Origin: Bacteroidota bacterium
GTDB taxonomy: Bacteria; Bacteroidota; Bacteroidia; Chitinophagales; Chitinophagaceae
Length of the DNA stretch: 64,000 nt
Direction of reading: 5' to 3'
Assembly: GCA_018970395.1 (NCBI GenBank)
Contig: JAGWWM010000002.1
Coordinates: forward strand, 1-64,000
The position numbers and the translations under genes are program-made. Under the pieces are notes generated by a model. That model searched no databases and was not told the origin of the DNA. It saw nothing but the letters and a program-made list of their open reading frames with translations. Below, piece by piece: positions 11,027-64,000 of the stretch; the stretch's first letter is position 1, and every line of letters begins with the position of its first letter.

Positions 11027-11704
11027 TTATTTAATATTTTTCTGAGCCCATCCCATGATTTGGGACAGTTGCTGCTCTCTGGTAAGGTAACTATTGTCGA
11101 GGAGAAGGGCATCTGCTGCCTGGCGAAGGGGACTAACGGCTCGGGAGGAATCAATGGCATCTCTTTCCATTAAATTCTGATAGACTTCTTCTAAGGTAAC
11201 GGAATGATTTTTTGATTTTAATTCTTCATATCTTCTTTGGGCTCTGATTTTAGGGTCGGCGGTCATGAAGATTTTCAATTCGGCATCGGGGAAAACGGTG
11301 GTGCCGATATCTCTGCCATCCATCACGATGCCCCGCGCCTTGCCCATTTCCTGCTGCTGATGGACAGCGAATGCGCGCACCATGGGCAAGGCGGCCACCG
11401 CACTCACTTTACCCGCCACTTCCTTCCCTCGTATGGGCTCCTCTACATTCACCCCGTTCAAATACATTTCCGGTATCCCGGTCTCCACATTTTTCACAAA
11501 ACGAAGCTGAATATGCTCCAATGCCCTCGCTACCTGCTCCTCCTCTTTCTCCTCAATCTGATGTTGTAAAAAATACAGCGCTATCGCCCGATACATGGCG
11601 CCGGTATCTATGTAAGTATAGCCCAATTTACGAGCAACCTCCTTCGCTACGGTACTTTTACCGCAGGAAGAATATCCGTCTATGGCGATGATGATGGGGG
11701 GCAA
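11027..11704 (-). CDS. cmk: (d)CMP kinase
   Basis: IAIDGYSSCGKSTVAKEVARKLGYTYIDTGAMYRAIAL; VMDGRDIGTTVFPDAELKIFMTA. Confidence 0.95.
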   Translation of the reverse strand: MPPIIIAIDGYSSCGKSTVAKEVARKLGYTYIDTGAMYRAIALYFLQHQIEEKEEEQVARALEHIQLRFVKNVETGIPEMYLNGVNVEEPIRGKEVAGKVSAVAALPMVRAFAVHQQQEMGKARGIVMDGRDIGTTVFPDAELKIFMTADPKIRAQRRYEELKSKNHSVTLEEVYQNLMERDAIDSSRAVSPLRQAADALLLDNSYLTREQQLSQIMGWAQKNIK

Positions 11705-11709
11705 GTGGG

Positions 11710-11808
11710 AATTAGTAATTAGTAATTAAGAATTAATAATAGGAAAACGGTTATATGTTGACGGTTAGCGGTTGACTGTTAACTGACAACTGATAACCGC
11801 TAACCGCT
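11710..11808. repeat. 7-nt-periodic composite repeat: TTAATTA/TAGTAAT module plus CGGTTAG palindrome
   Basis: CGGTTAGCGGTT (11762-11773) is the exact inverse of AACCGCTAACCG (11795-11806); flanked by AATTAGTAATTAGTAATTAAGAATTAATAAT. Confidence 0.8.
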
Positions 11809-14343
11809 TCACGCTTTACTCCGTTTCGACTCTTTGGTTTCTTTCTGAACGGTAAACGTAACCTTATCGGTTTCCTTGTCTAGTGCCGCTAACAATACAT
11901 CTCCTTCCTTCACCTTCATGTTCAATATCTCTTCTGCTAAAGGATCTTCGAGATATTTCTGTATGGCACGATGCAGAGGACGGGCGCCAAACTGCACGTC
12001 GTACCCTTTCTCGGCAATAAAATCTTTTACCTCTTCTGTCAGTTGTACAGAGAATCCGAGGGTCTTGATGCGCGCTAATACGCCTTTCATCAAAATATCT
12101 ATGATGCGGAAGATATGCTCTTTGGTAAGAGAATTGAAAATAATCACATCATCAATCCGGTTTAAAAACTCAGGAGAAAATGTTTTCTTCAATGCTTTCT
12201 CTATCACTGCCTTGCTGTTCTCTTCCTGATTCTGAATACGGGTGCTGGTAGCAAAACCAACGCCTTCTCCAAAATCTTTCAACTGTCGCACTCCAATATT
12301 GGAAGTCATGATGATCAAAGTATTTTTAAAATCCACTTTTCTTCCTAAACCATCAGTCAGTTGTCCGTCATCCAACACCTGCAACAAAATATTGTAAATA
12401 TCAGGATGCGCTTTTTCTATTTCATCCAACAATACTACTGAATACGGTTTCCTGCGAACGCGCTCGGTCAATTGTCCGCCTTCCTCATAACCCACATAGC
12501 CGGGAGGTGCGCCAATTAAACGACTCACGGTAAATTTCTCCATATATTCACTCATGTCAATCCGAATCAATGCATCTTCCGAATCAAACATGTGTCTTGC
12601 CAGCGAACGCGCGAGTTCTGTTTTACCTACGCCGGTTGGACCGAGAAATATGAATGTTCCGATGGGTTTTTTAGGATCTTTCAATCCTACTCGGTTGCGC
12701 TGAATAGATTTTACTACTTTGGTAATCGCTTCATCTTGTCCTATCACTGCACCTTGCAGATCGGCAGCCATACTGCGCAATTTTTCACTCTCCGCTTGCA
12801 CCATTCTTTTCACGGGAATGCCGGTCATCATGCTAATCACTTCCGCAATCGCTTCCTCATCAATCGGGTAGCGAGTATGCTTGCTTTCTTCCTCCCATTT
12901 CGCTTTCGCTTTTTCCAGCTCTACTTCCAGTTTCTTCTCTGAATCGCGCAGGGATGCGGCTTCTTCAAAACGCTGACTTTTCACCACTTTATTTTTCTCC
13001 TGCTTGATCTCTTCAATCTTTGCTTCAAGATCCAGCAGATCCTTGGGCACATTGATATTTTTCAGATGCACCCTTGCCCCTACTTCATCCATTACATCTA
13101 TCGCCTTATCGGGCAATAAGCGGTCGGTGATATAACGATCACTCAATTTCACACAGGCATCAATGGCATCATCGGCATAGGCTACGTTGTGAAAATCTTC
13201 GTATTTTGATTTGATATTATTCAATATCTGAATCGTTTCATCTACACTGGGTGGATCAATGATGACCTTTTGAAAACGACGATCCAGTGCTCCGTCTTTT
13301 TCAATATGCATGCGATATTCATCAAGGGTTGATGCGCCGATGCACTGCAATTCTCCTCTGGCAAGTGCGGGCTTGAAAATATTGGAAGCATCGAGTGAAC
13401 CGCTGGCACCTCCTGCGCCTACGAGCGTGTGTATTTCATCTATGAAAAGAATGACATCCCGGTTTTTTTCGAGTTCATTCATGATGGATTTCATGCGCTC
13501 TTCAAATTGTCCGCGGTACTTGGTACCGGCTACCAGTGCAGCGAGATCTAAAGACACTACTCTTTTATCATATAACACCCTGGATACTTTTCGCTGAATG
13601 ATGCGCAGTGCAAGACCTTCTACAATGGCTGTCTTCCCTACCCCCGGCTCTCCGATTAAAATCGGATTATTCTTTTTTCGTCGGGAAAGAATTTGCGATA
13701 CCCTTTCGATTTCCGCTTCTCTTCCTACAATCGGATCGAGGGAACCACTTTCAGCGAGCTTGGTAATATCTCTTCCGAAATTATCCAGCACCGGCGTTTT
13801 ACTTTTAGTGCCTGCCTGTCCTTTCGATTTGGCACCCGCATATCTTGATTTTTCTTCTTCCATTTCTTCTTCTCCGCTGTCTTCAAATTCGGCACGAGGA
13901 TCCATAGGCTTCACCAGTCCCAGTTCGTTGCGGAAAATATCGTAGTCCACATCATATTGCTGCAAGAGTTGCGTAGCGATATTTTCTTTGTTTTTTAAAA
14001 TGGATAACATCAGATGTTCAGTTTCAATTTGAGGGCTCTTGAGTGATTTTGCTTCCAGCAAGGTCACTCTGATTACTTTTTCGGCCTGACGGGTAAGGGG
14101 TACGCTGTTGACATTGGCGACAGTTTTGCCGGTATTGTCCTGCACAGCTACTTCAATCCCTTTTCTGAGTTCATAAAGATCTACTTTGAGGGTCTTTAGT
14201 ATTTTAACTGCCGTATTTTCGCCTTCTCGGATGATGCCCAACACCAAATGTTCTATGCTGATGTAGGCATTGCCCAAACGTATGGCTTCTTCCCTGCTGA
14301 AGGAAATGATTTCTTTGACTTGGGTGGAAAAATGCTGATCCAT
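11809..14343 (-). CDS. clpC: ATP-dependent Clp protease ATP-binding subunit ClpC
   Basis: Clp N domain, two AAA+ modules ([27 protein letters not shown]) and a UVR-like linker. The ORF track starts at 14421; Met at 14343 begins [20 protein letters not shown]. Confidence 0.95.
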
Positions 14344-14424
14344 AACGGATAATTGGTTTTTACAATGATAAGGAATATTTTTAAGAACTATATTTGAAAA
14401 ATCATACAATTCTGTTAACAAGAT

Positions 14425-14820
14425 ATGGAGTTCAAAATTGATACCAAAGAGAAATTCAGGGTCATCAGCCTGCTGGAGACTAATCTTACTGCTAATATGA
14501 CAGATGCGCTGCGTAAGTTACTCTCAGAATCGCCGGCAGATCAACCGCCGCATTTAGTATTAAAAATGGGCGCAGTGAAAAGTATCAGTGCGGAAGCAGC
14601 TTCTTGTATATTGGATGTACAACAGCAATTTTACGACCGAGGACATTCAATGGTCATTTGTGAGTTGGGGAATAACGTGGAACAATTGCTGGATGAAATT
14701 GAAATACTGGATTTGCTCAATGCCACTCCTACCGAATCGGAGGCATGGGATATTGTGCAGATGGAAGAAATAGAAAGGGAATTGCTGGGAGATGAAGATT
14801 CGGATCATCCCACCACTTAA
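14425..14820 (+). CDS. STAS-domain (anti-sigma factor antagonist-like) protein
   Basis: AADALRKLL...LVLKMGAVKSISAEAASCILDVQQQFYDRGHSMVICELGNNVEQLLDEIEIL-like STAS fold. Confidence 0.7.
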   Translation: MEFKIDTKEKFRVISLLETNLTANMTDALRKLLSESPADQPPHLVLKMGAVKSISAEAASCILDVQQQFYDRGHSMVICELGNNVEQLLDEIEILDLLNATPTESEAWDIVQMEEIERELLGDEDSDHPTT

Positions 14821-14836
14821 TTTAATCATTGAGCTG

Positions 14837-15619
14837 ATGTTAGGCGTAACCATCTTAGGAAACAATTCTGCCATTCCGGCCCACGGACGTCATCCGACGG
14901 CACAGGTGATTACTACGCCCGATGATTTGTTATTATTTGATTGCGGGGAGGGCACTCAAATACAGATTCTCAACTACAAAATCAGAAGAGGGCGCATCAA
15001 TCATATTTTCATTTCGCATTTGCACGGAGATCATTATTATGGACTGGTGGGATTACTCAGCAGTTTCGCATTGCTCGGACGCAACCAGCCGTTAACCGTA
15101 TATGGCCCGGCTCCTTTGAAAGAACTGATGGAGCGGCATTTTGCATTGTCTGATACAGATTTGCCCTACCCTTTACATTTTCACGCTATAGAAGGAGCAG
15201 GATTATTACTCGATGCGCCGCATTACACCGTTTCCTGTTTCAATACCAAACACCGGATTGAGTGCAGGGGATTTTTAATCCGGCAGAAGAAGGCGGAAAG
15301 AAGACGTTCTGATAAACCACGCTCGTATGCTTTTACAGCTGATACGCAATTTGATGAAGCGTTAATTGAGATTGTGAAAGGGGTTGATCTCTTGTATCAT
15401 GAAACCACCTATCCGCATGCGCTGGCAGATAAAGCTTATGCGCGTTTTCATTCTACCACGCATCAGGCAGCGGAGATTGCGAAAAGAGCGCAGGTAGGTA
15501 AATTATTGATTGGTCATTTCTCCGCGAAGTTTGAAGAGATCGAACCTTTTGAGGTGGAAGCACGGGAGATTTTTCCTGCAACGGAAGCGGCGAGAGAAGG
15601 GGTAACGTATTTGGTGTAG
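14837..15619 (+). CDS. rnz: Ribonuclease Z
   Basis: GRHPTAQVIT...LLFDCGEGTQIQIL...HIFISHLHGDHYYGLVGLLSS; AFTADTQFDEAL. The Met at 14837 avoids overlap with the upstream gene. Confidence 0.93.
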   Translation: MLGVTILGNNSAIPAHGRHPTAQVITTPDDLLLFDCGEGTQIQILNYKIRRGRINHIFISHLHGDHYYGLVGLLSSFALLGRNQPLTVYGPAPLKELMERHFALSDTDLPYPLHFHAIEGAGLLLDAPHYTVSCFNTKHRIECRGFLIRQKKAERRRSDKPRSYAFTADTQFDEALIEIVKGVDLLYHETTYPHALADKAYARFHSTTHQAAEIAKRAQVGKLLIGHFSAKFEEIEPFEVEAREIFPATEAAREGVTYLV

Positions 15620-15639
15620 GGGATGTCCTCGCCCTTAGT

Positions 15640-15659
15640 CCCCCTCCTACAGGAGAGGG
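15640..15659. repeat. CCCTCCT/AGGAGAGGG palindromic repeat between convergent genes
   Basis: TTAGTCCCCCTCCTACAGGAGAGGGAAAA between the rnz and dapA stops. Confidence 0.5.
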
Positions 15660-15676
15660 AAAAGATACTGATGTAT

Positions 15677-16573
15677 TTATTTGTTGAGTTCCTTCAGATA
15701 TTTTTTAACCGCTTCATGATAATTCGCACTTAAGGGCACGAGGGGAAGTCTGAGTACATTCTGCAATTGTTGCTGCTCGTACATAAAGGCTTTGATGCCG
15801 GCAGGATTGTTTTCGCAGAACATTAATTCGTAAGCAGGCAGCAGTACATCATTCAAACGCTTTGCAGTAGCGAAGTCACCCTTTAGTGCCGCTCCTATCA
15901 TTTGACTGAAAGTTTGTGGAAAGGCATTGGCTGCTACGCTGATTACTCCTTCCATGCCACAGGCAATTTGCGACATGGCTAGTGCATCGTCGCCGCTTAA
16001 TACCATAAAGTCTGCAGGTTTATCTTTCAGTAATTCCATACAATGCACCATATCGCCTCCGGCTTCTTTGATGCCAATGATATTGGGAATTTCGCGCGCG
16101 ATTCGAAGAATCGTTTCTGCAGTCATGCCTCTGCCCGTTCTGCCGGGCACATTATAGAGGAGGATTGGTTTGGGAGAGGCGGATGCCAATGCTTTATAAT
16201 GCTGGAAGATCCCTTCCTGGGAGGGTTTGCTGTAGTAGGGACTGGCACTTAGGATTGCGGCAGCGCCCTCCAGAGGAAAAGTTTGTAAATCTTCAATCAA
16301 TGCCGCTGTATTATTGCCGCCGATGCCCACTACAACAGGAATATTTCCTTTCGTCTCCTCATAAGCAATCTGAATCAGTTGAATTTTTTCCACTTTGGAA
16401 AGAACCGGAGTTTCACCGGTGGTACCGAGTACAACAAGATACTGGCAGCCCTTATTGATAACGTTATGAATTATTTTTTTGAAGGATGCCACGTCAATGG
16501 AACCATCCTGCTGAAAGGGGGTTACCAATGCCACCCCTGTACCTGTTAATTGTTTGCGTAATAGATCCGACAT
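15677..16573 (-). CDS. dapA: 4-hydroxy-tetrahydrodipicolinate synthase
   Basis: GTGVALVTPFQQDGSID, VVLGTTGETPVLS, YYSKPSQEGIFQHY, LYNVPGRTG, GIKEAGGD. Confidence 0.95.
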   Translation of the reverse strand: MSDLLRKQLTGTGVALVTPFQQDGSIDVASFKKIIHNVINKGCQYLVVLGTTGETPVLSKVEKIQLIQIAYEETKGNIPVVVGIGGNNTAALIEDLQTFPLEGAAAILSASPYYSKPSQEGIFQHYKALASASPKPILLYNVPGRTGRGMTAETILRIAREIPNIIGIKEAGGDMVHCMELLKDKPADFMVLSGDDALAMSQIACGMEGVISVAANAFPQTFSQMIGAALKGDFATAKRLNDVLLPAYELMFCENNPAGIKAFMYEQQQLQNVLRLPLVPLSANYHEAVKKYLKELNK

Positions 16574-16580
16574 GTATGAT

Positions 16581-16641
16581 TCGTTTGTCGTTTCTCGTTT
16601 GTCGTTTCTCGAACAACGATCAACGAACAACGAGCAACGAA
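16581..16641. repeat. Palindromic heptamer array (CGTTTNT)4-(NNCAACG)4
   Basis: TCGTTTGTCGTTTCTCGTTTGTCGTTTCTCGAACAACGATCAACGAACAACGAGCAACGAA. Confidence 0.9.
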
Positions 16642-16670
16642 TTTTGGTTTTGACATTTGAATTAAAATAT

Positions 16671-22368: not shown

Positions 22369-23823
22369 CTACCTGTTGACCGATGTCACGGTAAATAAAT
22401 CACCGGGCTGCAACCTGGGGGTGTAATCATTGGTATTTATTTCCGTCTGCGGATAAAAAAACCGCTGGGGTAACTGCGTTCCTGTAACCGGTGCCAGTCC
22501 GATTAGATTTTTCGTTCGACGTACATCATTGAACTGCTCGATCTGGCCAATCAAAGTGATATACCGCTCTTCTACAATCTCCTTTAACAAGGCTTCATTT
22601 TGAGTTTCGCCATTATTTTCTTCCCCTCCAGTGTCGAAATCAGTGGCTGTATAGGGTTCATATTTTAAATCATAGGTAGTTTTGTAAAAAGTACCTATAT
22701 ATCCTCCGCCATTCATAAAAGAACGAAATACATTCAAAGCATTCAGCGCATTGCTGAAATCATTACTGCGGATATAAGCTTCGGCCAATATCAATTGATT
22801 CTCTTCAAAAGTGATGAGCGGGAAAGGCGTCACTCCACCAAAGAATCCATCTGCAGCTGCATTGTCCACCCAACCGTCAAACGCACATTGCACATTCAAT
22901 TCATTACCCCCATACAATAATCCGCCTCCGAGATAATATAAATACTTAGCACGAGCCTCTTCATTGGTCTTGCTGTTACCACGATATTGAGTAGCGGCAG
23001 GATCCAGTAATTTGGGTGCATAAGCTTCCTCTGCGCTCATGTAGGAGTCCCGATCATACACTCCAAAGGAATAATACAAATTGAAATCTACATTGTAGCT
23101 TGGTCCGTGTGGCGCCAGCATATTATCCGCTGCTGATGCAATCCCTTGTGTTGCCGCAGTAATCGTTTTTGCATATTCCTTCGTGTGCAGATAATATCTT
23201 GCCTTCAACGTATAAGCTGCTTTCTTCCATTTTAGCGCATCACCACCATAGAAAATATCTTTCGTGCCGGGTGAAACGCCAACACCGGATGATAAATTCA
23301 CTATTGCGGAGTCGAGTAGTTTTTGTACCCCTGCATACACAGTCGTCTGCTCATCGTACTTGGGAGCCGGATGCATTTCAGGATCTACCGCCTCGGTAAA
23401 AGGAATGTCTCCGAATAAAGAGGTAAGCGTGCCAAAGGTATGCGCCTGCATCACCTGTGCAATGCCCGTCAGTAATTTGTTGTTGATGGCGTTGCTCTTT
23501 TCAATGATAATCTGACAAGGAGCAATCACTCCCCTGTACGCTACACTCCAGGTATTGTCATAATCGCCGGATGTAGTAACATAGCTGTTCAGACTTAAAT
23601 ACTGACGATCTACGCCGGTAAATGATTGCGACCACATGCCTGCCAGTCGGGCAAAATCTCCTTCATGCAGAATGATGCTTGATACCTGTGCGCCGTTGAG
23701 CATAAGATTTGCAGGCGCATCGGTAGGACTGTTCGGGCTTACATTCACATCTTCCACTATTTTTTTACAGGCACTCTGCATTAGAACCATAATGATGATT
23801 AAAGTATATGAAATTTTTTTCAT
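22369..23823 (-). CDS. SusD/RagB-family lipoprotein (SusD-like 2)
   Basis: Lipobox MVLMQSACKKIVEDVNVSPNSPTDAPANLML; EIVEERYITLIGQIEQFNDVRRT; paired with the upstream SusC. Confidence 0.88.
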   Translation of the reverse strand: MKKISYTLIIIMVLMQSACKKIVEDVNVSPNSPTDAPANLMLNGAQVSSIILHEGDFARLAGMWSQSFTGVDRQYLSLNSYVTTSGDYDNTWSVAYRGVIAPCQIIIEKSNAINNKLLTGIAQVMQAHTFGTLTSLFGDIPFTEAVDPEMHPAPKYDEQTTVYAGVQKLLDSAIVNLSSGVGVSPGTKDIFYGGDALKWKKAAYTLKARYYLHTKEYAKTITAATQGIASAADNMLAPHGPSYNVDFNLYYSFGVYDRDSYMSAEEAYAPKLLDPAATQYRGNSKTNEEARAKYLYYLGGGLLYGGNELNVQCAFDGWVDNAAADGFFGGVTPFPLITFEENQLILAEAYIRSNDFSNALNALNVFRSFMNGGGYIGTFYKTTYDLKYEPYTATDFDTGGEENNGETQNEALLKEIVEERYITLIGQIEQFNDVRRTKNLIGLAPVTGTQLPQRFFYPQTEINTNDYTPRLQPGDLFTVTSVNR

Positions 23824-23955
23824 GTTTGAGTTTTTTTAGTTTGAATGATGAGGATTTGATAAACTATATTTTAAGTTCACCTATTTTGAATCAATACTTA
23901 ATAATGTTTAGTTGTTTCACGCAAAGCTCACAAGGAGGCAAAGACGCAAATGGGT

Positions 23956-24035
23956 GTCATGTTGAGCGACAGCGAAACATCTCATATTTCGAAACATTCC
24001 CCATAAGGAGATTCTTCGCTGACGCTCAGAATGAC
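23956..24035. repeat. Long inverted repeat GTCAT..TGAGCG..CAGCGAA..ATCTC
   Basis: Arm 23956-23983 GTCATGTTGAGCGACAGCGAAACATCTC against the inverse of 24008-24035 GTCATTCTGAGCGTCAGCGAAGAATCTC (23/28 identical), with a 24-nt loop. Confidence 0.85.
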
Positions 24036-24079
24036 GATAACCATAATTATTAATCATCCTTATAATTCTTAATTATTAA

Positions 24080-27000
24080 TTAATAATTGATCTTCACACT
24101 CATTAAATACGACCTCGTACTCGGGTTATTAAAATAATCCAATCCTCTTCCGTTAGACGGACCGGTCAGATTGGTTTCTGGATCAATGCCGGAGTAGTTT
24201 GTCCATAAAGCCAGGTTTCTTCCAGTGAATGAAAAGTCAATGGAATGTAGTCGCAACGGTTTTAAAATCTTCTGATCACTCAGTGTATAGGAGAGAGCAA
24301 TTTCTCTCAAACGCGTACGGGTACCGTCTTCTACAAATTGTGAACCCACCGGACCAAAACCTCCACCCAGATTTTCAAACCAGGATTGTGTCAGTGCAAC
24401 CGGCCCCGCTCCAAAATCTTTAATCATACCTCTGAAAGGTGTATTGGCTGCAATCACTGCTCCGGTAGATGTTTTTAATGCCTGACTTGATACAACTTCA
24501 TTCCCCACATCTTCATGGGTACCAAAAGTGTAGAGTGCTCCCTTCGTACCATTCCACACATCTCCTCCCTGCACATGATCAATCAGGAAGGATAAAGTAA
24601 AGCCTTTGAAGCTTACACTGGTATTAAAGGATCCGATCCAATCGGGATTGGGATTTCCGATAACCCCTTCCTCTGAATTAGCCACTGGAAAACCATTTGC
24701 ATCCAACACCAATGCTCCTTTAGGATCCCGTAAAAAATCTACGCCCCATAATGCACCCAGCGGTTGTCCCTCCACCGCTCTGGAAGAAGATCCGGTAAAG
24801 CCATTGAGGAAAACTGTTTTGGTGCCCCCCATATCTGTTACCTCATTCCGATTCATAGAGAAAATCAGGTTGCTGGTCAATTTGAGATCGCGCGTGTTCA
24901 ACCAATTGGCGCCGAGATCCAATTCAATCCCTCTGTTTTTAATGGTGCCAATATTATCCAATTTAGTATCAAAGCCGGTGCTCGGTGGAACCGCAACATT
25001 GAGAATCACATCTTTGGTCTGACTATTGTAATAAGTAGCCCCTAAGTTGATACGATCATTCCAGAATCGAAAATCGCCGCCTAATTCAAACTCGGTTTTA
25101 ATTTCAGGTTTGAGATCGGGATTGCCCTGTAACCCACTTCGCGCATAGCCGCCCCCATAGATGGCTGAAGATGCATCAAGTCCGGGTCCCCAGGATTCAA
25201 ATTCCCTGGCAGGACCAAAATAAGTATCCCAGGCATAAGCACCGGGCGGCACACCCACTTGTCCGAATGAAGCCCGTACTTTTCCGAATGAAAGAATGTT
25301 TTTGTTGCCATCCGTTTGTGCTGAACGAAACACGTATGCAACTGCAGCAGAAGGATAGAAAAAGGCGTCTTTCAAGGTGGAGTATCTTTCATAACGGCCG
25401 GACAGATCGACAAACAACATGTCTTTATACCCCATATTCCCCTGGGCATACAATCCATTTACACGAGTAGTAGTTTGGGCATTAAACGGCGTACGTTGTT
25501 CCTTGGCTGAATTACCAAGATCGAATGGGGCATCAGGAAGAATGAAACCTCTTACTGCCGCACCAATATTCTCTGAGTTTCTGTTGTTATAATTAAATCC
25601 GATGATGCCGGAAATATCCAAATCTTTGAAGCGACTTGTTTGTGCGCGCAACAAAACATCATTATTGATTTGTGCTTCACTGATGGTTTGTTCCGTCAAT
25701 TCACCTCCTGCTTTTGTAGCCGATGAAATGAAGGGGAAATTTTCTATTCTGCTGTCGAGATAATAATCCAGTCCGGTACGATTGACCAATGAAAGCCAGT
25801 TGGTGATTTTAGCATCTACTTCTACCGTTGGTATGAAGCGGTGCAATTTAGATTCATTGGTTATGTTATTAATAACCCAGAAAGGATTATCATAACCGGA
25901 AGCATTGGCTTTGCCAATCGCATTGCGATACGCTACCTGCTTATTAAAATATTTCACGCCGCCGGCATCCACATAAGTACCCTCATATACAGCGTTGTCA
26001 AAATCGGCAGGCGTACGGAGGCCTCCCAGAAAAATTCCGTTTAGATTACTACCCTGCTGCACCCGATTCGATTGCGAATAGGTGTAGGTGATTCCTGAAC
26101 GAATGGTGAGAAAATCAATTTTTCTTTCTGAACTAAAACGAATCGTTCTTCTTTTGTAATCACTCCCCGCTTTGAGGATACCCTGTTGTTCCATATTTCC
26201 AAGACTCAGGAAAAAATTTCCTTTTTCATCACCGCCTGTAAAAGAGATATTGTTATCCCAGAATGAACCATTGTGAAACAACTCTTTACTGTGATCATAA
26301 GTATCTCTGCTCCGTTTGCCACCGGATGGATTGGCTGCTGTGCCATTAGCAAGCGGATATCGCTTGGAACCGTCCGGCAACAAAAGATATTCACCGGAAG
26401 GATTGAGCGGTTCATCCGCGCCTCCGGCGCGGTCTGCAATTTTATCACCCCATGAGCGTGCATAATTGTAACGGAATAAACCATTATTCCCCTGTCCGTA
26501 ATTTCTTTGCAGCGGCACCGATTTATTGAGTTCATCAATCGAGTAAACAGACTGAAAAGAAATATTGACTTTTCCCTTTGTATTCTTCCCTTTTTTCGAG
26601 GTGACCACAATCACCCCGTTGGCAGCGCGTGCTCCCCATAATGCAGCAGCAGCCGCTCCTTTTAGAATCTCAACAGATTCAATATCTGCAGGATTTAAAT
26701 CATTTAATCGTGATTGTTGAGCCACCCCATCAGTAGCAGAGCCGATGGTTGAATTACTAATCGGTACACCATCCAGCACAATCAAAGGCTGCGTGCCTCC
26801 GCTGATGGTACTTTGTCCTCGAATGAGAATATAGGCGCCCGCACCCGGATCACCGCCGGTTCGGCTGATATTCACACCGGCAGCTTTGGAGGTAAGTCCG
26901 TTAATCAAATTCGCTTCCCCCGATTTTTGTACTGCGTTTCCTTTAACTGCCACATTACTGAAAGTAGAAACATCTTTGGCGCGTTTAAAACCTAAAGCAG

Positions 27001-30339: not shown

Positions 30340-31074
30340 ATGCAGAGAGAAATCCATAGCTGGTATAGTCCGGCTTTACAAAAAGAAATGCCGGCAGTGG
30401 TGTACGGTCATTACGGCTATGCTTTATTGCTTATCCCGACTGCAGCAGCTGATTTTTTAGAGTATGAAAGGTTTCAGCTTATTGAAACCATGCGACCCTG
30501 GATTGAAGCGGGGAAATTAAAAGTGTATAGTGTCAACAGCATCAATACAGAGAGCTGGATGAACTATCAGATGGAAGGCGCGCACAAAGCGATTCGGCAC
30601 AACCAGTTCAATGATTATATCTACAACGAGGTGGTTCCTTTTATCCGCAACACATCGAGTCAAGACACCCTCATCTACACCTGCGGTGCTTCTTTCGGAG
30701 CGCTGCACAGCATGAATTTATTTTTGAAAAGACCCGATATCATCAATGGCGTATTAGCCATGAGCGGCGTATATGAACTCACAGAATACACGCGCGGCTA
30801 CTGGGATGAACAGGTATATTTCAACAGTCCCATGCACTATATCCCTAATCTGGCAGATCACCACACACTCGAACAAATCCGGCGCAGCCGTCAGATTCAT
30901 ATCGTAACGGGGAGCGGTGCTTTTGAAGACCCTTCCAGCAGTGGCCGTTTTGCCAAAGTCTTATACGACAAAGGCATTCATTATAACCTGGATATCTGGG
31001 GAGAAGAATGGCCGCACGACTGGCAGACCTGGAGGACGATGATGCCGGTGTATCTGGAATATAAGTTGAATTAA
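30340..31074 (+). CDS. Esterase/alpha-beta hydrolase family protein
   Basis: MPAVVYGHYGYALLLIPTA; LIYTCGASFGALHSMNLFLKRPD (GxSxG-like); WGEEWPHDWQTWRTMMP. Confidence 0.78.
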   Translation: MQREIHSWYSPALQKEMPAVVYGHYGYALLLIPTAAADFLEYERFQLIETMRPWIEAGKLKVYSVNSINTESWMNYQMEGAHKAIRHNQFNDYIYNEVVPFIRNTSSQDTLIYTCGASFGALHSMNLFLKRPDIINGVLAMSGVYELTEYTRGYWDEQVYFNSPMHYIPNLADHHTLEQIRRSRQIHIVTGSGAFEDPSSSGRFAKVLYDKGIHYNLDIWGEEWPHDWQTWRTMMPVYLEYKLN

Positions 31075-31227
31075 TTAGTAATTAGTAATTAAAAATTAAT
31101 AACTACTAATTACACACGAAAAACTTGACAGTTACTAATTACTAATTATTAATTACTAATTATTAATTGCTAATTATTAATTACTAATTATTAATTACTA
31201 ATTATTAATTGCTAATTCTTAATTAAG
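31071..31227. repeat. TAATTAN heptamer repeat array
   Basis: TTAATTACTAATTATTAATTACTAATTATTAATTGCTAATTATT..., 7-nt register held over more than 80 nt, in a convergent intergenic gap. Confidence 0.88.
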
Positions 31228-31635
31228 AATACCCTCCACCGCCAACCCATACCCCTTCAGTCCCAACCCGCTGATGGTACCCTTGCATTTGGCAGATACA
31301 TGGGAAATCTTTCTGAAATCTTCGCGTGCATGCACATTTGAAATATGTACTTCAATCACCGGCGTTTTGATGGCAGCAATGGCATCGCCAATAGCGACAG
31401 AAGTATGTGTATAGCCCCCGGGATTGAAAATGATACCATCGTAATCAAAACCCACCCGCTGTAATTCATTGATAAGTTCGCCTTCCACATTGCTTTGAAA
31501 ATAAGAGAAACTAATCTGCGGATATCGTTGCTGCAATTCAGCAAAGTATTGCTCGAAAGATTGGTGGCCATATACGTCGGGCTCTCGCTTTCCGAGCAAA
31601 TTCAAATTAGGTCCGTTGATGATGGCTATCTTCAT
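31219..31635 (-). CDS. aroQ: Type II 3-dehydroquinate dehydratase
   Basis: IINGPNLNLLGKREPDVYG; IIFNPGGYTHTSVAIGDAI; EVHISNVHAREDFRKIS. Confidence 0.95.
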   Translation of the reverse strand: MKIAIINGPNLNLLGKREPDVYGHQSFEQYFAELQQRYPQISFSYFQSNVEGELINELQRVGFDYDGIIFNPGGYTHTSVAIGDAIAAIKTPVIEVHISNVHAREDFRKISHVSAKCKGTISGLGLKGYGLAVEGILN

Positions 31636-34989: not shown

Positions 34990-35180
34990 GATAAAGGTTG
35001 TAGGTTGTAGGTTGTAGGTTGTGGGTTGGAAGCTCAAACTCAAAGGTCAAAGGTCAAAAGCAATAAAACATTTTGTTTTTGACTTTTGATGATTTCAATT
35101 TCCTAAAACTCTAAACCCTAAACCTCTCAACAACTATTCTTAATTATTAATTACTAATTATTAATTGTTAATTACTAATT
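34990..35180. repeat. Composite heptamer repeat A: GGTTGTA array, AAGGTCA, CTAAACC, TTAATTA modules
   Basis: GGTTGTAGGTTGTAGGTTGTAGGTTGTGGGTTGG; CAAAGGTCAAAGGTCAAAAGC; CTAAACCCTAAACC; TTAATTATTAATTACTAATTATTAATTG. Confidence 0.85.
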
Positions 35181-35189
35181 AACACCATC

Positions 35190-40406: not shown

Positions 40407-40508
40407 TTTAATTAGTAATTAATAATTAAAAATTAAGAATAGTTATTGAGATGTTTATAGTTTAGAAAAACGTACAACTTGTAACCTTCAACCCACAACC
40501 TACAACCT
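40407..40508. repeat. Composite heptamer repeat B, diverged inverted relative of repeat A
   Basis: Inverse of 40431-40465 matches 35111-35145 at 31/35; CTTCAACCCACAACCTACAACC is the inverse of the GGTTGTAGGTTGTGGGTTG module. Confidence 0.85.
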
Positions 40509-51717: not shown

Positions 51718-51788
51718 TAGCCTCGTCAGGAATCGAACCTGAATCTGGAGCTTCGGAAACTCTTATACTATCCATTGTACTACGAGGC
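51718..51788 (-). tRNA. tRNA-Arg(CCG)
   Basis: GGCCTCGTAGTACAATGGATAGTATAAGAGTTTCCGAAGCTCCAGATTCAGGTTCGATTCCTGACGAGGCTA; anticodon loop TTCCGAA. Confidence 0.9.
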
Positions 51789-51904
51789 CGTTGTCAATAA
51801 TCATGACATTTGCAAATGTAATTCAAAACGGGCAACTGCTTTCTTGTGAAGGTTTTTGCTTTGATAAATAATTTTTTGTAAAACATAACGCTTCCCCTAC
51901 TTTT

Positions 51905-52083
51905 GTTCCGTATTGGTTTCCAGAAATGGAATTAAAAGGGAAGTCCGGTGCAAATCCGGCGCTATCCCCGTAGCTGTAAGCCCGATGCTGTCAAAAGCTT
52001 TTCAACCACTGCATCCACTGTCCCGATACCAAGGGATGGGAAGGAAGTTGAAAAGTCGGGTAAAGCCAGAAGACCTGCCTCTA
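51905..52083 (+). promoter_or_regulatory. Cobalamin riboswitch
   Basis: AAAAGGGAAGTCCGGTGCAAATCCGGCGCTATCCCCGTAGCTGTAAGCC ... GTAAAGCCAGAAGACCTGCC; directly upstream of a BtuB-like receptor and cob genes. Confidence 0.93.
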
Positions 52084-52203
52084 CAGATTCATTATTTTGC
52101 TTTCGGGTGAAAGGCAGGAAATGTTGGGCTTCTCTCCTTAACAGGAACAGATCGTTTTACATTTCTCTTTTTTCGAAAGCAGTCACTTCTAACCCTTTTC
52201 AAC

Positions 52204-54135
52204 TTGAAAAAGAAATTGTTATTGGTGGCTGCTCTGATATTCAGCAGCTACGCACGGGCACAACAAGACAGTGCCGTCAAATCTCTCGATGAAATAATCA
52301 TCACCGCCAACCGAATCGAACAAAAACAATCGCAAACCGGTAAAGTCATTACAGTAATCGGTAAAGAAACACTGAACAAAAGCCAGGGCAAATCGCTCGC
52401 GCAGGTATTGAATGAACAAGCGGGCATCACCGTCAACGGAGCGCTCAACAATCCGGGCACGGTGCAAACGGTTTATATGCGCGGTGCCAATAGCGGAAGG
52501 GTTTTGATCATGATTGACGGAATGCCTATCAACGATCCCTCCCAGATCAACAATGAATTTGATCTCAACCTCATACAACTTAATGAAGTCGAAAGAATAG
52601 AAATTGCCCGAGGCGCTCAATCTACTTTATACGGCAGCGATGCGGTAACGGGTGTAATCAATATCATTACGACCAAAACAGATATTAAAAAACCTGTCAA
52701 TATCAAAGCGGGTGTTACCAGTGGAAATCTGGGAATTTTTCGGAGCAACGTACAAGTTTTCGGAAAAGCCAACAAACTGGAATATCAGTTGAAGACTGCT
52801 CAATTTCGTGCAAACGGATTTTCCACTGCTCAAGATGAAAAACAAACAGGTCAGTTCGATCAGGATGGATTTAACGGAAAAAATATCAGCGCCTCTTTAA
52901 AATATCACATCGCTCCGGATTTGTCTATTCGCGGATTCATTCAGAACAATGACTATAAAACAGATCTGGACAACGGAGCTTTTACAGATGATAAAGACTT
53001 CACTCAAAAAAGCACCAATCTGAATACGGGAGGCAGCATCAACTGGAAAAATAAAATCGTCAACCTCACTGCCAACTTCATGTACTCGCAGTCTCGCCGA
53101 AATTTTCTGGATGACAGCACCAGCATTGGAGGATTTTCAAAATTTGTAAAAGATGATTATTACAGCCAAAGCCGATTCGGAGAAATCTTCGCTTCCTTCA
53201 ATATTCATCCACAACTCGTATTGCTGACCGGCTATGATATGCGAATATCTTCCTTTAACAACCAATTTCTTTCCATCAGTTCCTTCGGTCCTTTCAACAG
53301 TGAGTTTAAAGACACTTCCATTCGTCAGGAGTCTTTGTATGCTTCGCTTATTTTCAATTCAGCCGATAAAAAATTCAATATGGAGCTGGGGGGAAGAATT
53401 AATGTGAATAGCAAATACGGAAGCAATTATACCTACACGCTCAATCCGTCTTACCATATCAGCAAGAACATTCAAGTATTTGGAAGCATTGCAACCGGAT
53501 TTAAAGTGCCGAGTCTGTTTCAACTGTATTCAGGATTTGCCGGCAACGATCGGCTGCGTCCGGAAGAGAGCATCAATTATGAAGGAGGAGTAGGATATAC
53601 CGGAAAACAACTCCGTCACCGATTCGTTTTCTTCCATCGTAAGGTGAACAGAGGAATTGATTTTGACTATGTGAATTTCAAATATTACAATATACCCAAT
53701 CAGCGCGCGAATGGATTGGAATATGAAATCGCCTGGCAGCCATTCAAAAATATTGATGTCAATGCAAACGCTACTTGGATAGGTGGACAAGAATTTGTGC
53801 AAAGCAGAATTACCACCAAAGACAGCAGTTATGCTTATTTATTGAGAAGACCAGCGCTGCAAGCCAATCTGCAACTGGGTTATCGTTTTAAAGAAGCCTG
53901 GTATTTTTCAGTAAGTGCAAGATATGTGAGCGCACGCTATGATGTCGGCGGATTTCAGATGCCGGATGTGCGGCTGAATGATTATTTCATTGCCAATGCT
54001 TATTTATCTTATACTAAAAAGTATGGTAAAATATTTATTGACCTGCAAAACTTTACCAATACTGTTTTTTATGATATCAGAGGATTTAACAGCATTCCGA
54101 TGATCGCACAGGCAGGACTGCAACTGGAATGGTAA
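52204..54135 (+). CDS. btuB: TonB-dependent receptor, BtuB-like (cobalamin uptake)
   Basis: DEIIITANRIEQKQSQTGKVITVIGKE...VYMRGANSGRVLIMIDGMPINDPS; TLYGSDAVTGVINIIT; downstream of a cobalamin riboswitch. TTG start. Confidence 0.9.
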   Translation: MKKKLLLVAALIFSSYARAQQDSAVKSLDEIIITANRIEQKQSQTGKVITVIGKETLNKSQGKSLAQVLNEQAGITVNGALNNPGTVQTVYMRGANSGRVLIMIDGMPINDPSQINNEFDLNLIQLNEVERIEIARGAQSTLYGSDAVTGVINIITTKTDIKKPVNIKAGVTSGNLGIFRSNVQVFGKANKLEYQLKTAQFRANGFSTAQDEKQTGQFDQDGFNGKNISASLKYHIAPDLSIRGFIQNNDYKTDLDNGAFTDDKDFTQKSTNLNTGGSINWKNKIVNLTANFMYSQSRRNFLDDSTSIGGFSKFVKDDYYSQSRFGEIFASFNIHPQLVLLTGYDMRISSFNNQFLSISSFGPFNSEFKDTSIRQESLYASLIFNSADKKFNMELGGRINVNSKYGSNYTYTLNPSYHISKNIQVFGSIATGFKVPSLFQLYSGFAGNDRLRPEESINYEGGVGYTGKQLRHRFVFFHRKVNRGIDFDYVNFKYYNIPNQRANGLEYEIAWQPFKNIDVNANATWIGGQEFVQSRITTKDSSYAYLLRRPALQANLQLGYRFKEAWYFSVSARYVSARYDVGGFQMPDVRLNDYFIANAYLSYTKKYGKIFIDLQNFTNTVFYDIRGFNSIPMIAQAGLQLEW

Positions 54136-59287: not shown

Positions 59288-61525
59288 TTGAGTCAACTTG
59301 CCACCATACCACCTTATACGCTGAATGCGGAGCAGGAAAAAAAAGAAATCCTGCGGCAGTATCGTTCGCTGCTGCGATTGCTGAAATCCAAACTCAAAAA
59401 GGGAGACAAAGAATTATTACGCGTGGCATTTGAAATAGCAGCGGACGCACATCGTACCATGCGTAGAAAAACCGGAGAGCCTTATATCCTTCATCCGTTG
59501 GCTGTGGCGCAAATTTGTGTAGAAGAAATCGGTCTGGGTGTTCGGTCCACCATCTGCGCGCTGCTGCACGATACCGTGGAAGACACGGATGTAACGCTCG
59601 ACGATCTGGAACATGAATTTGGCAGTGAAATCGCAAGAATCATTGACGGACTGACGAAAATCTCGAATGTGGTGGACACCAATTCCACACAACAGGCAGA
59701 GAACTTCAAGAAAATATTGCTTACCCTTACCGATGATCCGAGGGTCATTCTGATTAAACTAGCGGATCGCTTGCACAATATGCGAACGCTCGACGGCATG
59801 CGCCGTGAAAAGCAACTCAAAATTGCAAGTGAAACGATTTATATCTACGCGCCACTGGCACATCGACTGGGCTTATACAATATCAAAACGGAAATGGAAG
59901 ATCTCTCCATGAAATACATGGAGCCCGATATTTACCGAGACATCGCAAAAAAACTGGCTGAAACCAAAAGAGAAAGGAGTCGTTACATCAATGAATTTAT
60001 CAAGCCGGTAAAAGAACGCATGGAAAAAGCGGGCTTTACCACTTTCGACATTTACGGTCGGCCGAAATCCATCCATTCCATTTCCAATAAAATCAAAAAA
60101 AAGGGCGTATCCTTCGAAGAAGTGTATGACCTTTTTGCTATCCGCATTATCATTGATGCCCCTCAGGAAAAAGAAAAAGAAGAGTGCTGGAAAGCTTATT
60201 CGATTGTTACGGATATGTACACGCCTTCTCCCGAAAGAATGCGAGACTGGCTGAGCAATCCGAAGAACAACGGCTATGAGGCCTTGCATACCACCGTAAT
60301 GGGGCCTCAAGGCAAATGGGTGGAGGTACAGATACGCAGTCGGCGGATGAATGAAATTGCGGAGAAAGGATTGGCAGCGCACTGGAAATACAAGGAAGGC
60401 AGCGGAGATGAAGATCGTTTTGATAAATGGTTTCAGAATATCCGGGAAGTGCTCAACAATCAGGAGAGCAGCTCTCTAGATTTTTTACAGGATTTTAAAA
60501 GCTCATTCCTTGCGGAAGAAATTTATGTCTATACTCCAAAGGGAGATGTGAAAATGTTGCCTGTAGGTGCGACTGCGCTCGATTTTGCATTCCATGTGCA
60601 CTCCGATGTGGGCAGTCATTGCATCGGCGCGAAAGTGAATCATAAGCTGGTGCCCATTGCCCATAAACTTCGCAGCGGAGATCAGGTTGAAATCATCACG
60701 AGCAGCAAACAAAAACCCGGAGAAGACTGGCTGAATATCGTGGTTACCGCTAAAGCAAGAAACCGTATTAAGGATGCGCTGAAAGAAGAAAAAAGAAAGA
60801 TCGCCGATGAAGGGAAATACATTATCCAGCGTAAGCTGGAACAAATGGGGGTTGCTTATGATCTTACCAATATAGAAGTGTTGACCCATTTTTTCAAACA
60901 ACCTTCCCATCTTGAATTTTATTACAAGGTGGCCAACAAGTACATTGATCTGAAGGAATTAAAAGAAGTGCCTGTACACGGAGATCGCTTTGAATTACCT
61001 AAGCCTGTTAAACCTGCTGAAACACGAATACCTTATGACCCCTCCAAAGCATTGCCGGGAAAAGACAGTGAACTCATCATATTTGGAGAAAGCAGTGATA
61101 AAATTGTTTACACGCTCGCCAATTGTTGCAAGCCGATTCCGGGAGATGATGTGTTTGGCTTTGTCTCTATGGGAAAAGGACTCATCATTCACCGAACGAA
61201 TTGTCCGAACGCTACGCGACTGCTTTCCAATTTTGGGCATCGGGTGGTCAAAACAAAATGGGCTAAACACAAAGAGATTTCCTTTCTTACCGGCATTAAA
61301 ATCATCGGAGTGGATGATGTGGGAGCCGTAAGTAAAATACTCAGTCTGGTTTCCGGTGAAATGAAACTTAATATCAGCGCCATCACTATCGAAGCCAAAG
61401 AAGGCGTATTTGAAGGGAATATCCGCTTATTTGTACGAGATAAAGATGAACTTGATCGTCTGGTTTCAGGTCTGCTTAAATTACCGGGCATTGATAAAGT
61501 AGAGCGATACGATACCGAACAATAA
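59288..61525 (+). CDS. spoT: RelA/SpoT-family bifunctional (p)ppGpp synthetase/hydrolase
   Basis: HD domain (YILHPLAVAQI...LLHDTVEDTDV), synthetase (KSIHSISNKIKKKGVSFEEVYDLFAIRIII...NGYEALHTTVMGP), TGS and ACT domains. Confidence 0.96.
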   Translation: MSQLATIPPYTLNAEQEKKEILRQYRSLLRLLKSKLKKGDKELLRVAFEIAADAHRTMRRKTGEPYILHPLAVAQICVEEIGLGVRSTICALLHDTVEDTDVTLDDLEHEFGSEIARIIDGLTKISNVVDTNSTQQAENFKKILLTLTDDPRVILIKLADRLHNMRTLDGMRREKQLKIASETIYIYAPLAHRLGLYNIKTEMEDLSMKYMEPDIYRDIAKKLAETKRERSRYINEFIKPVKERMEKAGFTTFDIYGRPKSIHSISNKIKKKGVSFEEVYDLFAIRIIIDAPQEKEKEECWKAYSIVTDMYTPSPERMRDWLSNPKNNGYEALHTTVMGPQGKWVEVQIRSRRMNEIAEKGLAAHWKYKEGSGDEDRFDKWFQNIREVLNNQESSSLDFLQDFKSSFLAEEIYVYTPKGDVKMLPVGATALDFAFHVHSDVGSHCIGAKVNHKLVPIAHKLRSGDQVEIITSSKQKPGEDWLNIVVTAKARNRIKDALKEEKRKIADEGKYIIQRKLEQMGVAYDLTNIEVLTHFFKQPSHLEFYYKVANKYIDLKELKEVPVHGDRFELPKPVKPAETRIPYDPSKALPGKDSELIIFGESSDKIVYTLANCCKPIPGDDVFGFVSMGKGLIIHRTNCPNATRLLSNFGHRVVKTKWAKHKEISFLTGIKIIGVDDVGAVSKILSLVSGEMKLNISAITIEAKEGVFEGNIRLFVRDKDELDRLVSGLLKLPGIDKVERYDTEQ

Positions 61526-61590
61526 TTTTTCCTTTTTCTACCGCAAGGCTTTCACTTAATTTTGCCACTGCAATTTAAATAATCAAAAAT

Positions 61591-62871
61591 ATGGTAGATG
61601 TTTTATTAGGGCTTCAATGGGGAGATGAAGGGAAAGGGAAGGTCGTGGATTTTTTTGCCCCTCGCTATCAGGTAATCGCCCGATTTCAGGGAGGGCCAAA
61701 TGCCGGACACACCTTGTATGTTAAAGGAGAAAAAGTAGTATTGCACCAAATTCCGAGTGGTATTTTCCATGAAGAGATTACCAACCTCATCGGGAACGGA
61801 GTCGTACTCGATCCGGTAACCCTAAAAAAAGAATGCGAGAAAGTAGCTGCCTTCGGCGTAGATGTAAGAAAAAATCTGTTCATTGCCGAGCGCACAAATA
61901 TCATTGTGCCCACCCACCGGGCACTCGATAAAGCATCTGAATTGTCGAAGGGGGCAGAAAAGATTGGTTCAACCCTCAAAGGAATCGGCCCTGCTTATAT
62001 GGATAAAACCGGCAGAAATGCGCTACGTGTAGGGGATTTGTTGCGAAGTGATTTCAACACCCTGTATGAAAAACTGCGCACCAAGCATTTGCAGATGCTG
62101 GGCGTATATCAGTTTGAAGAAGATATTGCGGCCTGGGAAGCAGAATTCTTTGAAGCTGTTGCTTTTCTCAAGACCCTCAATATTGTGAATGGCGAATACT
62201 TTATTAATCAACAAATCAAAGCAGGGAAAAAAATACTGGCTGAAGGTGCGCAAGGAAGCATGCTGGATGTGGACTTCGGCACGTTTCCTTTTGTTACTTC
62301 TTCCAATACTATTTCCGCCGGTGTATGCACAGGTCTCGGTATTGCTCCTCAGCATATTGGTGAAGTAATCGGCGTTACAAAAGCGTATTGTACCCGAGTA
62401 GGTGGCGGCCCCTTCCCTACAGAATTATTCGATGAGACGGGAGAAGAACTTCGAAAAATCGGACATGAATTCGGAGCCACTACCGGACGTCCGCGCCGGT
62501 GCGGCTGGATGGATCTGGTTGCTCTTCATTACGCTTGCATGATCAATGGGGTTACACAGATTGTAATGACAAAGTCGGATGTACTGGATCATTTTAAACT
62601 ACTGCAAATTTGCAAATCGTATCGGGTGAATGGTCAGGAAACCCAACAAATGCCTTATCAGTTGTCCGATACAGATATCTCGCCTGTTTATGAAAATTTT
62701 GAAGGATGGGATAAACCGATTGCAAGTTGCGATAGCATGGATGATTTACCGGAGGCTTTCAACAAATACCTCCGATATATTACCGATTATCTCGACATAC
62801 CAATCACCTATATTTCCAATGGACCCGGAAGAGAACAAATTATTCATGAAAAGACAACCGCTACGGCATAA
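61591..62871 (+). CDS. purA: Adenylosuccinate synthase
   Basis: MVDVLLGLQWGDEGKGKVVDFFAPRYQVIARFQGGPNAGHTL; TTGRPRRCGWMDLVALHYA. Confidence 0.97.
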   Translation: MVDVLLGLQWGDEGKGKVVDFFAPRYQVIARFQGGPNAGHTLYVKGEKVVLHQIPSGIFHEEITNLIGNGVVLDPVTLKKECEKVAAFGVDVRKNLFIAERTNIIVPTHRALDKASELSKGAEKIGSTLKGIGPAYMDKTGRNALRVGDLLRSDFNTLYEKLRTKHLQMLGVYQFEEDIAAWEAEFFEAVAFLKTLNIVNGEYFINQQIKAGKKILAEGAQGSMLDVDFGTFPFVTSSNTISAGVCTGLGIAPQHIGEVIGVTKAYCTRVGGGPFPTELFDETGEELRKIGHEFGATTGRPRRCGWMDLVALHYACMINGVTQIVMTKSDVLDHFKLLQICKSYRVNGQETQQMPYQLSDTDISPVYENFEGWDKPIASCDSMDDLPEAFNKYLRYITDYLDIPITYISNGPGREQIIHEKTTATA

Positions 62872-62939
62872 AAAAAGACTACTAAAAATTTGGCTATTTA
62901 AAAAACTCGCTGAAATTTTACATATAAGAACGTTGTACC

Positions 62940-63356
62940 ATGGCAAAGTCAACTAAAAAAACAAATCCGAAAGCAAAAGAAAAACCGGCCGAAACCAAAA
63001 AGGCTTCTACTCGTTCCAAAAAACAAGAGGAAGATGATTTGGAGGAAGACGAGGAAACGAATGAATCGGAAGCCGGTTTAAAAAAACGCGGCAAAGCATC
63101 AGGATCCTCCAAAAAGAAATCGAATGATGACGATGAGGAGGACGATGATGATCTTCCCGAGGAAGAAGATGACTGGAATAAGGACGATGAAGATTATGAT
63201 CCTGATTTCGAAGAATTCGATCTGCCGAAATCATCTGCAAAAAAAGGGAAGAAAGGAAAGGGGGACGATGACGATTTGGGACTTGATGATGACTTCTCTG
63301 AATTTGATATGATGGGCGGCGGTAATGACTTTGATGATGACGATGATGATTTCTAA
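62940..63356 (+). CDS. Low-complexity Lys-rich/Asp-Glu-rich protein of unknown function
   Basis: MAKSTKKTNPKAKEKPAETKKASTRSKKQEEDDLEEDEE...NDFDDDDDDF; basic N-terminal half, very acidic C-terminal half, ordinary gene spacing after purA. Confidence 0.75.
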   Translation: MAKSTKKTNPKAKEKPAETKKASTRSKKQEEDDLEEDEETNESEAGLKKRGKASGSSKKKSNDDDEEDDDDLPEEEDDWNKDDEDYDPDFEEFDLPKSSAKKGKKGKGDDDDLGLDDDFSEFDMMGGGNDFDDDDDDF

Positions 63357-63364
63357 ATGAGGAT

Positions 63365-64000
63365 GTGAAAAGAATTTTTCAGTCTTTCCCGATACAAGAT
63401 ATTGCTTCTATTCAACAACAAGTGCTGTACTGGAGTCAACAGTCCGGCACTTGTGTTTTTTTAGACAATCACCAATATCAATCCCCCTATCATCAGTACG
63501 AATGCATGGCGGGCGCAGGCATACATCGGATGATCAGTGCCAATGCCGGCAATGCGCTGGATCAATTGCAACAGGCGATAGATGAACAGCCGGAATGGTG
63601 GATGGGGCATCTGGGCTACGGCCTCACTGCAGAAACTTCAGGTTTACCAACCTCCAACTCGTTTATCGTTTCTCGTTTTTCGACTATCGCAACACAACGA
63701 ATAACGAACAACGAACAACAAATAACCAGCCCCAACCGCTTCCCCGATGTCTTCTTCTTCATACCAAAAGTATTGATTCAAATTCAGGGGCATACGCTTT
63801 CCATTGGGAGTTTTCAAGCGAATCATGCGGAATTATATCAGGAAATTCTAGCCGCACGATATGATGCGACTTCTGCCTCTACACTACAGCTGCAAGAAAG
63901 AATCAGTCGTGCTGCCTATTTGGATAAAATTGAAACGATTCAGCACCATATTCGAAGAGGGGATTGTTATGAATTGAATTATTGTATGGAGTTCTATGCT
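63365..64000 (+). CDS. pabB: Aminodeoxychorismate synthase component I-like (partial, runs off right edge)
   Basis: GTG-initiated frame open to 64000 (212 codons): MKRIFQSFPIQDIASIQQQVLYWSQQSGTCVFLDN...WWMGHLGYGLTAE...FPDVFFFIPKVLIQIQGHTLSIGS...YLDKIETIQHHIRRGDCYELNYCMEFYA. Not in the ORF track because no stop lies in the window. Confidence 0.88.
   Translation, partial: MKRIFQSFPIQDIASIQQQVLYWSQQSGTCVFLDNHQYQSPYHQYECMAGAGIHRMISANAGNALDQLQQAIDEQPEWWMGHLGYGLTAETSGLPTSNSFIVSRFSTIATQRITNNEQQITSPNRFPDVFFFIPKVLIQIQGHTLSIGSFQANHAELYQEILAARYDATSASTLQLQERISRAAYLDKIETIQHHIRRGDCYELNYCMEFYA
63658..63728. repeat. Palindromic CGTTTNT/NAACGAA heptamer repeat inside pabB
   Basis: CTCGTTTATCGTTTCTCGTTTTTCGACTATCGCAACACAACGAATAACGAACAACGAACAACAAATAACC; same family as 16581-16641. 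Confidence 0.85.

Follow-up and report, generated by a model that had tools for sequence, protein, structure and literature searches.

Mirrored heptamer arrays in the intergenic spacers of a Chitinophagaceae genome and their possible renewal by slippage and template switching

The first 64,000 nucleotides of contig JAGWWM010000002.1 (assembly GCA_018970395.1, a Bacteroidota bacterium of the Chitinophagaceae), hereafter the window, hold short tandem arrays whose units differ in sequence from place to place and share a length of 7 nt, and the question is what such arrays are and what process makes them. An initial annotation had described six loci as a dispersed class of modular palindromic repeats with a common generating or recognition mechanism. 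We studied the window, which is the start of contig C2, together with 1.30 Mb (about half) of its genome (G000; 2.42 Mb, 74 contigs), and compared orthologous spacers among G023, G305 and G306, three species of a second Chitinophagaceae genus (g11) whose orthologous proteins are ∼95–97% identical. The arrays are mostly intergenic and paired with their own inverse, and in g11 the two arms of a pair co-vary and the core between them is sometimes inverted. We think it somewhat probable that they are a Bacteroidota form of heptamer repeats, made by slippage of units and by template switching, with turnover at the DNA level; the template-switching signatures are seen in g11 only, and the mechanism would by extension also act in G000.

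Arrays were detected by scoring runs of self-match at each lag, the six loci were also examined with Tandem Repeats Finder and by direct inspection, and genes were called with a simple, approximate hexamer-based method on which all intergenic and coding assignments rest. In the window the run-scoring scan found 10 period-7 segments; apart from multiples of 7, no other period gave more than one, and shuffles gave no period-7 segment. The 1.30 Mb of G000 contained 117 period-7 arrays, with harmonics of 90, 59 and 28 at periods 14, 21 and 28, and only 2, 2, 7, 4 and 3 arrays at periods 4, 5, 6, 10 and 11. Within gene gaps alone, 108 arrays had period 7 and 22 had period 8, and none of the periods 4–6 and 9–12 had more than 6; a Markov model of the same gaps predicts 0–3. 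In 100 kb of E. coli K-12 there were no arrays at any period from 3 to 16. Period 7 is real and dominant in the window and in the 1.30 Mb of the genome, it is present at all six loci first described, and these loci are not plain homopolymer slippage tracts. The expectation that period 7 exceeds other periods therefore holds with one restriction, that of a smaller 8-nt class, of which 17 arrays were counted in the 1.30 Mb of G000, almost all of one CGTTGATT-like type, and which in G023 appears in the same style as TCAGTTAT and AATTTTCA. Because 8-mers behave alike, seven is not a strict recognition length. Period-9 matches in G000 come mostly from one run of coding collagen-like repeats on a single contig; a long coding repeat with a 9/18-nt period, similar to that of a collagen-like protein, lies at C4:22824-24920. 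The arrays of the window are as follows.

11710..11740, no strand: TAATTAG-type array of 4.4 units between the cytidylate kinase gene and a ClpC-like gene
11762..11819, no strand: mirrored CGGTTAG / CTAACCG arms around central TAACTGA-like units
16581..16611, no strand: left arm (TCGTTTN)n
16610..16641, no strand: right arm (CGANCAA)n, inverse of the left arm (16581..16611) at 5/7 positions
24044..24091, no strand: TAATTAT-type array, overlooked by the initial annotation
31072..31113, no strand: left arm (TAATTAG)n at the stop of an esterase-like gene, in a convergent spacer
31132..31230, no strand: right arm (CTAATTA/TTAATTA)n containing higher-order repeats of 14 and 28 nt, located at the aroQ (dehydroquinase II) stop
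34995..35028, no strand: (AGGTTGT)n directly upstream of the queA start, CAACCTA in the queA sense
35040..35058, no strand: (TCAAAGG)2.7
35102..35131, no strand: imperfect CCTAAAC units
35136..35181, no strand: (TAATTAT/C)n at the stop of the uracil phosphoribosyltransferase gene
40409..40440, no strand: (TAATTAG/A)n
40483..40508, no strand: (CAACCTA)n right arm; the module order is that of the 35 kb element reversed
63659..63682, no strand: left arm (TCGTTTN)n
63694..63726, no strand: right arm (CAACGAN)n

All six originally listed motif loci are in this list, which adds the locus at 24044–24091, and two of their motifs, AAGGTCA and CTAAACC, turned out to have only ∼2.7 copies each. The main motif families across G000 are TAATTAN (∼50 arrays), AACCTAC-like, CGTTTNT/CAACGAN, AAAAGTY and AACCGAT-like units, and the variation between units falls at fixed positions. 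Adjacent units are more alike than in shuffled order (z 6.6 at lag 1 and 4.7 at lag 2) and some arrays contain 14- and 28-nt higher-order repeats, suggesting that arrays grow by duplicating one or a few units. Where neighbouring arrays in G000 share a motif, 22 pairs are mirrored and 3 are direct, which bears out the earlier description of arrays paired with their own inverse. Recurrent module combinations were also found as described: a junction TAATT-GGA(G)-AAC, in which a GGA(G) loop separates a TAATTAN arm from an AAC-type arm, occurs at five loci, and one module order is common to the window's elements at 35 kb and 40.4 kb. CGTTTNT arms face CAACGAN arms at several loci with identical asymmetry each time, and the arm asymmetry of 16581–16641 is found again at other loci of G000.

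Although coding sequence makes up 91% of the 1.30 Mb, 102 of the 117 arrays lie mainly in intergenic sequence, and this location together with the 7-nt tandem excess agrees with heptameric long simple sequence repeats (LSSR), or short tandemly repeated repetitive (STRR) sequences. Among the spacers, 18 of the 66 convergent, 54 of the 399 codirectional and 6 of the 140 divergent ones contain arrays, and in codirectional spacers the median distance to the upstream stop is 15 nt and that to the downstream start 50 nt. Relative to genes in G000 they show no strand preference (24:19), and a strand-specific signal relative to transcription was discarded on this ground. They are polar in another sense: read from the gene into the spacer, whatever the strand of the gene, G exceeds C in 63 of 75 arrays in G000 (63:12) and in 84 of 91 in g11 (84:7), where the pooling of orthologues from three species overstates independence. 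General base composition fits as a cause at start sides, where array-free spacers also have G>C (241:86), but it fails at stop sides, where array-free spacers do not (97:107) and arrays do (46:11 in G000); in convergent spacers, which have two stop sides, the polarity is 15:3 in G000 and 19:1 in g11. Stop codons are also richer in the gene-to-spacer reading of arrays. Since neither 7 nor 8 is a multiple of 3, arrays could supply stop codons in every frame, but this was rejected as the cause of polarity, because stops are nearly as rich antisense of start codons, where they are irrelevant.

The comparison within g11 covered two syntenic blocks of ∼60 kb each per species and 88 orthologous spacers, 50 of which have an array in at least one species. 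In this genus mirrored arms lying directly against the genes delimit whole spacers, each spacer has its own motif, the cores between the arms are mostly 20–320 nt, and arm lengths differ between the species. In 49 same-family comparisons an arm matched its own partner better than the partner of its orthologue in 29 cases against 8 (Wilcoxon p 4e-5); in spacer (10,11), for example, both arms are AAGTCAAAAGTAAAAATTC units in G023 and AGTAAAAAGTCAAAATTC units in G305. Across different G023 loci the own partner was the better match in 32 of 44. Moreover, the 116-nt core of locus 79 is inverted (reverse complement 0.81 versus direct 0.53, z 19.8), and so is the 20-nt core of locus 67 in G023 versus both other species (0.70–0.75, z 7); a third candidate inversion, at locus 6, is weak (z 5.4) and was excluded from the count. 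Template switching at inverted repeats has been reported to homogenise the arms and to invert the intervening spacer (PMC8604942), and since co-variation of arms and inversion of cores are this published signature, they point to template switching in g11. Quasipalindrome template switches and small hairpin inversions of E. coli, yeast and plastids show the same two outcomes (PMC8604942), and intraspecific inversions at palindromes have been described in plastid spacers (PMC2903610). Quasipalindrome mutational hot spots are isolated inverted repeats, whereas the arms described here consist of 7/8-nt tandem arrays and occur at very many spacers.

Co-variation of arms would also be expected if the arrays were functional RNA stem-loops at gene ends, that is, bidirectional intrinsic terminators or stabilisers of mRNA 3′-ends that are selected for RNA pairing. 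The closeness of arrays to stop codons in codirectional spacers and their enrichment in convergent spacers agree with such a role, as do GC-rich hairpin cores between A-rich and T-rich arms, for example AAAATTCAAAA-gggtcgccaagcttcggggaccc-TTTTGAATTTTT in the orthologous spacer (10,11). In the window the best-strand fold z is −3.8 for 11710–11819, and the arm pair 31072..31113 and 31132..31230 has a fold z of −6.6. However, folding is in general only slightly stronger than in shuffled sequence: the median best-strand fold z is −1.5 for single arrays and −1.9 for multi-array elements, against −0.8 for array-free spacers, many arrays are single, a gene-strand preference is absent, and sense-strand arm mismatches in g11 have no excess of G-U over A-C (31:24). 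RNA structure was thus rejected as the main constraint, and weak RNA folding together with the lack of a G-U excess is easier to reconcile with a process acting on DNA than with selection for structure in RNA. We regard the RNA reading as unlikely.

Plain simple-sequence slippage, with a mirrored layout that has no role, is the classic view of heptamer repeats, and it agrees with the signature of unit-level duplication. In many bacteria heptamers are the commonest of the repeats of 5–11 nt, and 7 nt has been suggested as a polymerase-contact length (PMC4679880, PMC4692102). Slippage by itself does not predict mirrored pairing (22:3), polarity (63:12), co-variation of arms or inversion of cores, and we hold it to be very unlikely as the full account. 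With slippage and template switching combined, units would be gained and lost by slippage, as similarity of neighbouring units and 14/28-nt higher-order repeats suggest; the polymerase would switch template between the arms of a mirrored array, so that one arm is copied onto the other; and this switching would sometimes invert the core, as the pattern in g11 suggests. Selection would keep arrays out of coding sequence and of divergent promoter regions, judging from where they lie, and copying errors at DNA hairpins may in this way keep rewriting the spaces between genes. On this reading some cores with a GC-rich hairpin may serve as bidirectional terminators.

Some spacers have exchanged their motif altogether. 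In spacer G023b(45,46) the paired unit is 7-nt TTGAAAA in G023 and 8-nt AATAACTG in G305, and in spacer G023a(13,14) the arms are of AAAAGTA type in G023 and of AATTAAT type in G305 and G306. Such replacement of motif families at the same spacer would suit mobile or invertible elements with a dedicated enzyme for which the arrays would be repeated, directional end sites, comparable to the terminal inverted repeats of miniature inverted-repeat transposable elements (MITEs) or the sites of invertases, and mirrored arms, inversion of cores, recurrence of composite junctions and a uniform polarity with the G-rich strand toward the core fit this as well. MITE copies share arms and core; in g11 the copies do not, since cores are locus-specific, with few cross-locus matches among 77, and for the cores of two spacers whose arm type differs between species no second full copy was found in the three genomes, on which basis whole-element transposition was rejected as the source of the motif swaps. 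No target-site duplications were obvious in spacers viewed by eye only. The many motifs would require many enzymes or one that is indifferent to motif. The initial annotation had proposed a search for a transposase (Y1, TnpA_REP) of the kind associated with repetitive extragenic palindromic (REP) elements, and REP elements and bacterial interspersed mosaic elements (BIMEs), which go with REP-associated tyrosine transposases (RAYTs), are likewise intergenic, palindromic and dispersed. In contrast, the arms here, being tandem 7/8-nt units of many motifs, have no conserved palindromic consensus and no association with Y1_Tnp: there is one Y1_Tnp in G000, one broken copy with weak fragments in array-rich G023 and up to 12 matches in array-poor congeners of G000, so that Y1_Tnp counts do not follow array load and a RAYT/Y1 transposase was dropped as a candidate. 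Mobile or invertible elements seem to us quite unlikely.

Several observations weigh against slippage and template switching as the whole explanation. By themselves these two processes leave unaccounted for the one polarity of all motif families, the presence of the same motifs at dozens of loci and the replacement of a motif in both arms. Within G000 the CGTTT/CAACG arms retain a conserved mismatch, and of nine strictly mirrored pairs four had same-family mates, the own partner scoring higher in 0/4. Congeners of G000 are distant (QueA 55–59% identical) and array-poor, and the orthologue signatures therefore come from g11. A dedicated, motif-tolerant system in some Bacteroidota would read period and polarity, take mirrored 7/8-nt arrays as boundary marks of a spacer and flip, exchange or re-template the DNA between them; we consider such a system very improbable. 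Slippage with template switching remains our preferred reading, and of the common generating or recognition mechanism first proposed, a generating process is supported by the dominant unit length, the mirrored arms, the one polarity and the co-variation and inversion in g11, whereas strict 7-nt recognition is not, 8-mers being alike. Loss of SbcCD as the reason why palindromes survive was also rejected, because G000 has a full-length SbcC and its array-poor congeners have weak matches. The SbcC gene lies at G000:C46:3437-6685, the 13 congeners have weak or no matches, and a gain in G000 or a loss in the rest of the genus is possible.

The STRR heptanucleotide repeats of heterocystous cyanobacteria (Calothrix) include several 7-nt motifs per genome, as in G000, and are described as direct repeats, unlike the mirrored arrays of G000. 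They were the nearest precedent named at the outset, when no machinery was given for Bacteroidota, and closer ones exist: heptamer repeats have been described in five Bacteroidetes (MacGregor 2015, PMC4679880), and PMC4692102, which mentions the Calothrix repeats, cites a 2007 survey in which heptamers were over-represented in many bacterial genomes. The origin of this excess is still a matter of guesswork. The TAACTGA repeats of Beggiatoaceae, Cyanobacteria and some Bacteroidetes (PMC4679880) resemble the present arrays in their intergenic 7-nt tandem units, their patchy distribution among lineages and the occurrence of other heptamer motifs in Bacteroidetes spacers, and TAACTGA itself is present in the 11.8 kb element of the window. 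They differ in having one dominant motif, mostly forward and just upstream of starts, with few copies per set and one indirect repeat, whereas G000 has many motifs, mirrored arms, arrays at both gene ends and period 8 too. The regulatory pattern that MacGregor described is not found in G000, where the motifs are TAATTAN, AACCTAC, CGTTTNT, AAAAGTC and others, both strands are used (24:19) and arrays are nearer to stops than to starts. GGGNATC repeats of Xanthomonas and Nostoc (Rehm 2015, PMC4692102) are similarly ∼90% intergenic and near gene ends, vary extensively in length and sequence between species and, in Xanthomonas, are found at 16% in convergent versus 7–8% in divergent positions and include some inverted-repeat pairs. 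These repeats are one G-rich, quadruplex-capable motif, whereas arrays in G000 are mostly AT-rich and of many motifs, and mirrored arms that bound spacers and inversion of cores, as in g11, are unlike them. Heptamer repeats are thus already known, whereas the mirrored layout that bounds spacers, with arms that co-vary, cores that invert and motifs that are swapped, was not found in the literature searched, which was largely without subscription papers. With mirroring, a single polarity across unrelated motifs, co-variation of arms and inversion of cores, the heptamer statistic becomes a process that comparisons between close species can measure. These features suggest that in some Bacteroidota much of the DNA between genes changes by rewriting in blocks and not by point mutation. 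Such block rewriting would affect the inference of promoters, terminators and small RNAs from conservation in Bacteroidota.

Array load differs widely between genomes. TAATTAN triplets number 136 in G000, 0 in 13 congeners and 33 in G023, and a CAACNTN pattern occurs in 15 of 248 sampled Bacteroidota genomes, G000 being far ahead with 51 matches. Period-7 arrays number 4 in 200 kb of the congener G003, 2 in 120 kb of G018, 1 in 120 kb of G248, 11 in 160 kb of G089 and 42 in 200 kb of G023, and the motifs vary from genome to genome. As both counts and motifs differ by genome, the array load looks like a lineage-specific burst. At 100% estimated completeness G000 measures 2.42 Mb, compared with 3.9–5.1 Mb in 12 of 13 congeners; the exception, G005, is close to it in size. 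A link between genome reduction and array load is possible, although TAATTAN triplets are absent from G005. L042, a cyanobacterial MAG contig titled Richelia sp. UBA3308, is also rich in heptamer arrays (2734-2846 and 16387-16423), some of them with AAGTCAA-type units like those of G000.

A search of Rfam over the window returned only a cobalamin riboswitch and two tRNAs, and no known RNA family at the arrays. The riboswitch (RF00174, 105.7 bits) lies at 51897-52096 (+), upstream of ORF 52204-54135, and the tRNAs lie at 5591-5665 (−) and 51718-51789 (−). A second dispersed palindrome family, GTCAT..TGAGCG..CGAAGGATCT / AGATCCTTCGCT..CGCTCAGGATGAC, is often fused to CGTTTNT arrays; its sites include 23823-24080 of the window and, elsewhere in G000, contig C1 at ∼67.6 kb and 158 kb and contigs C11, C30 and C44.

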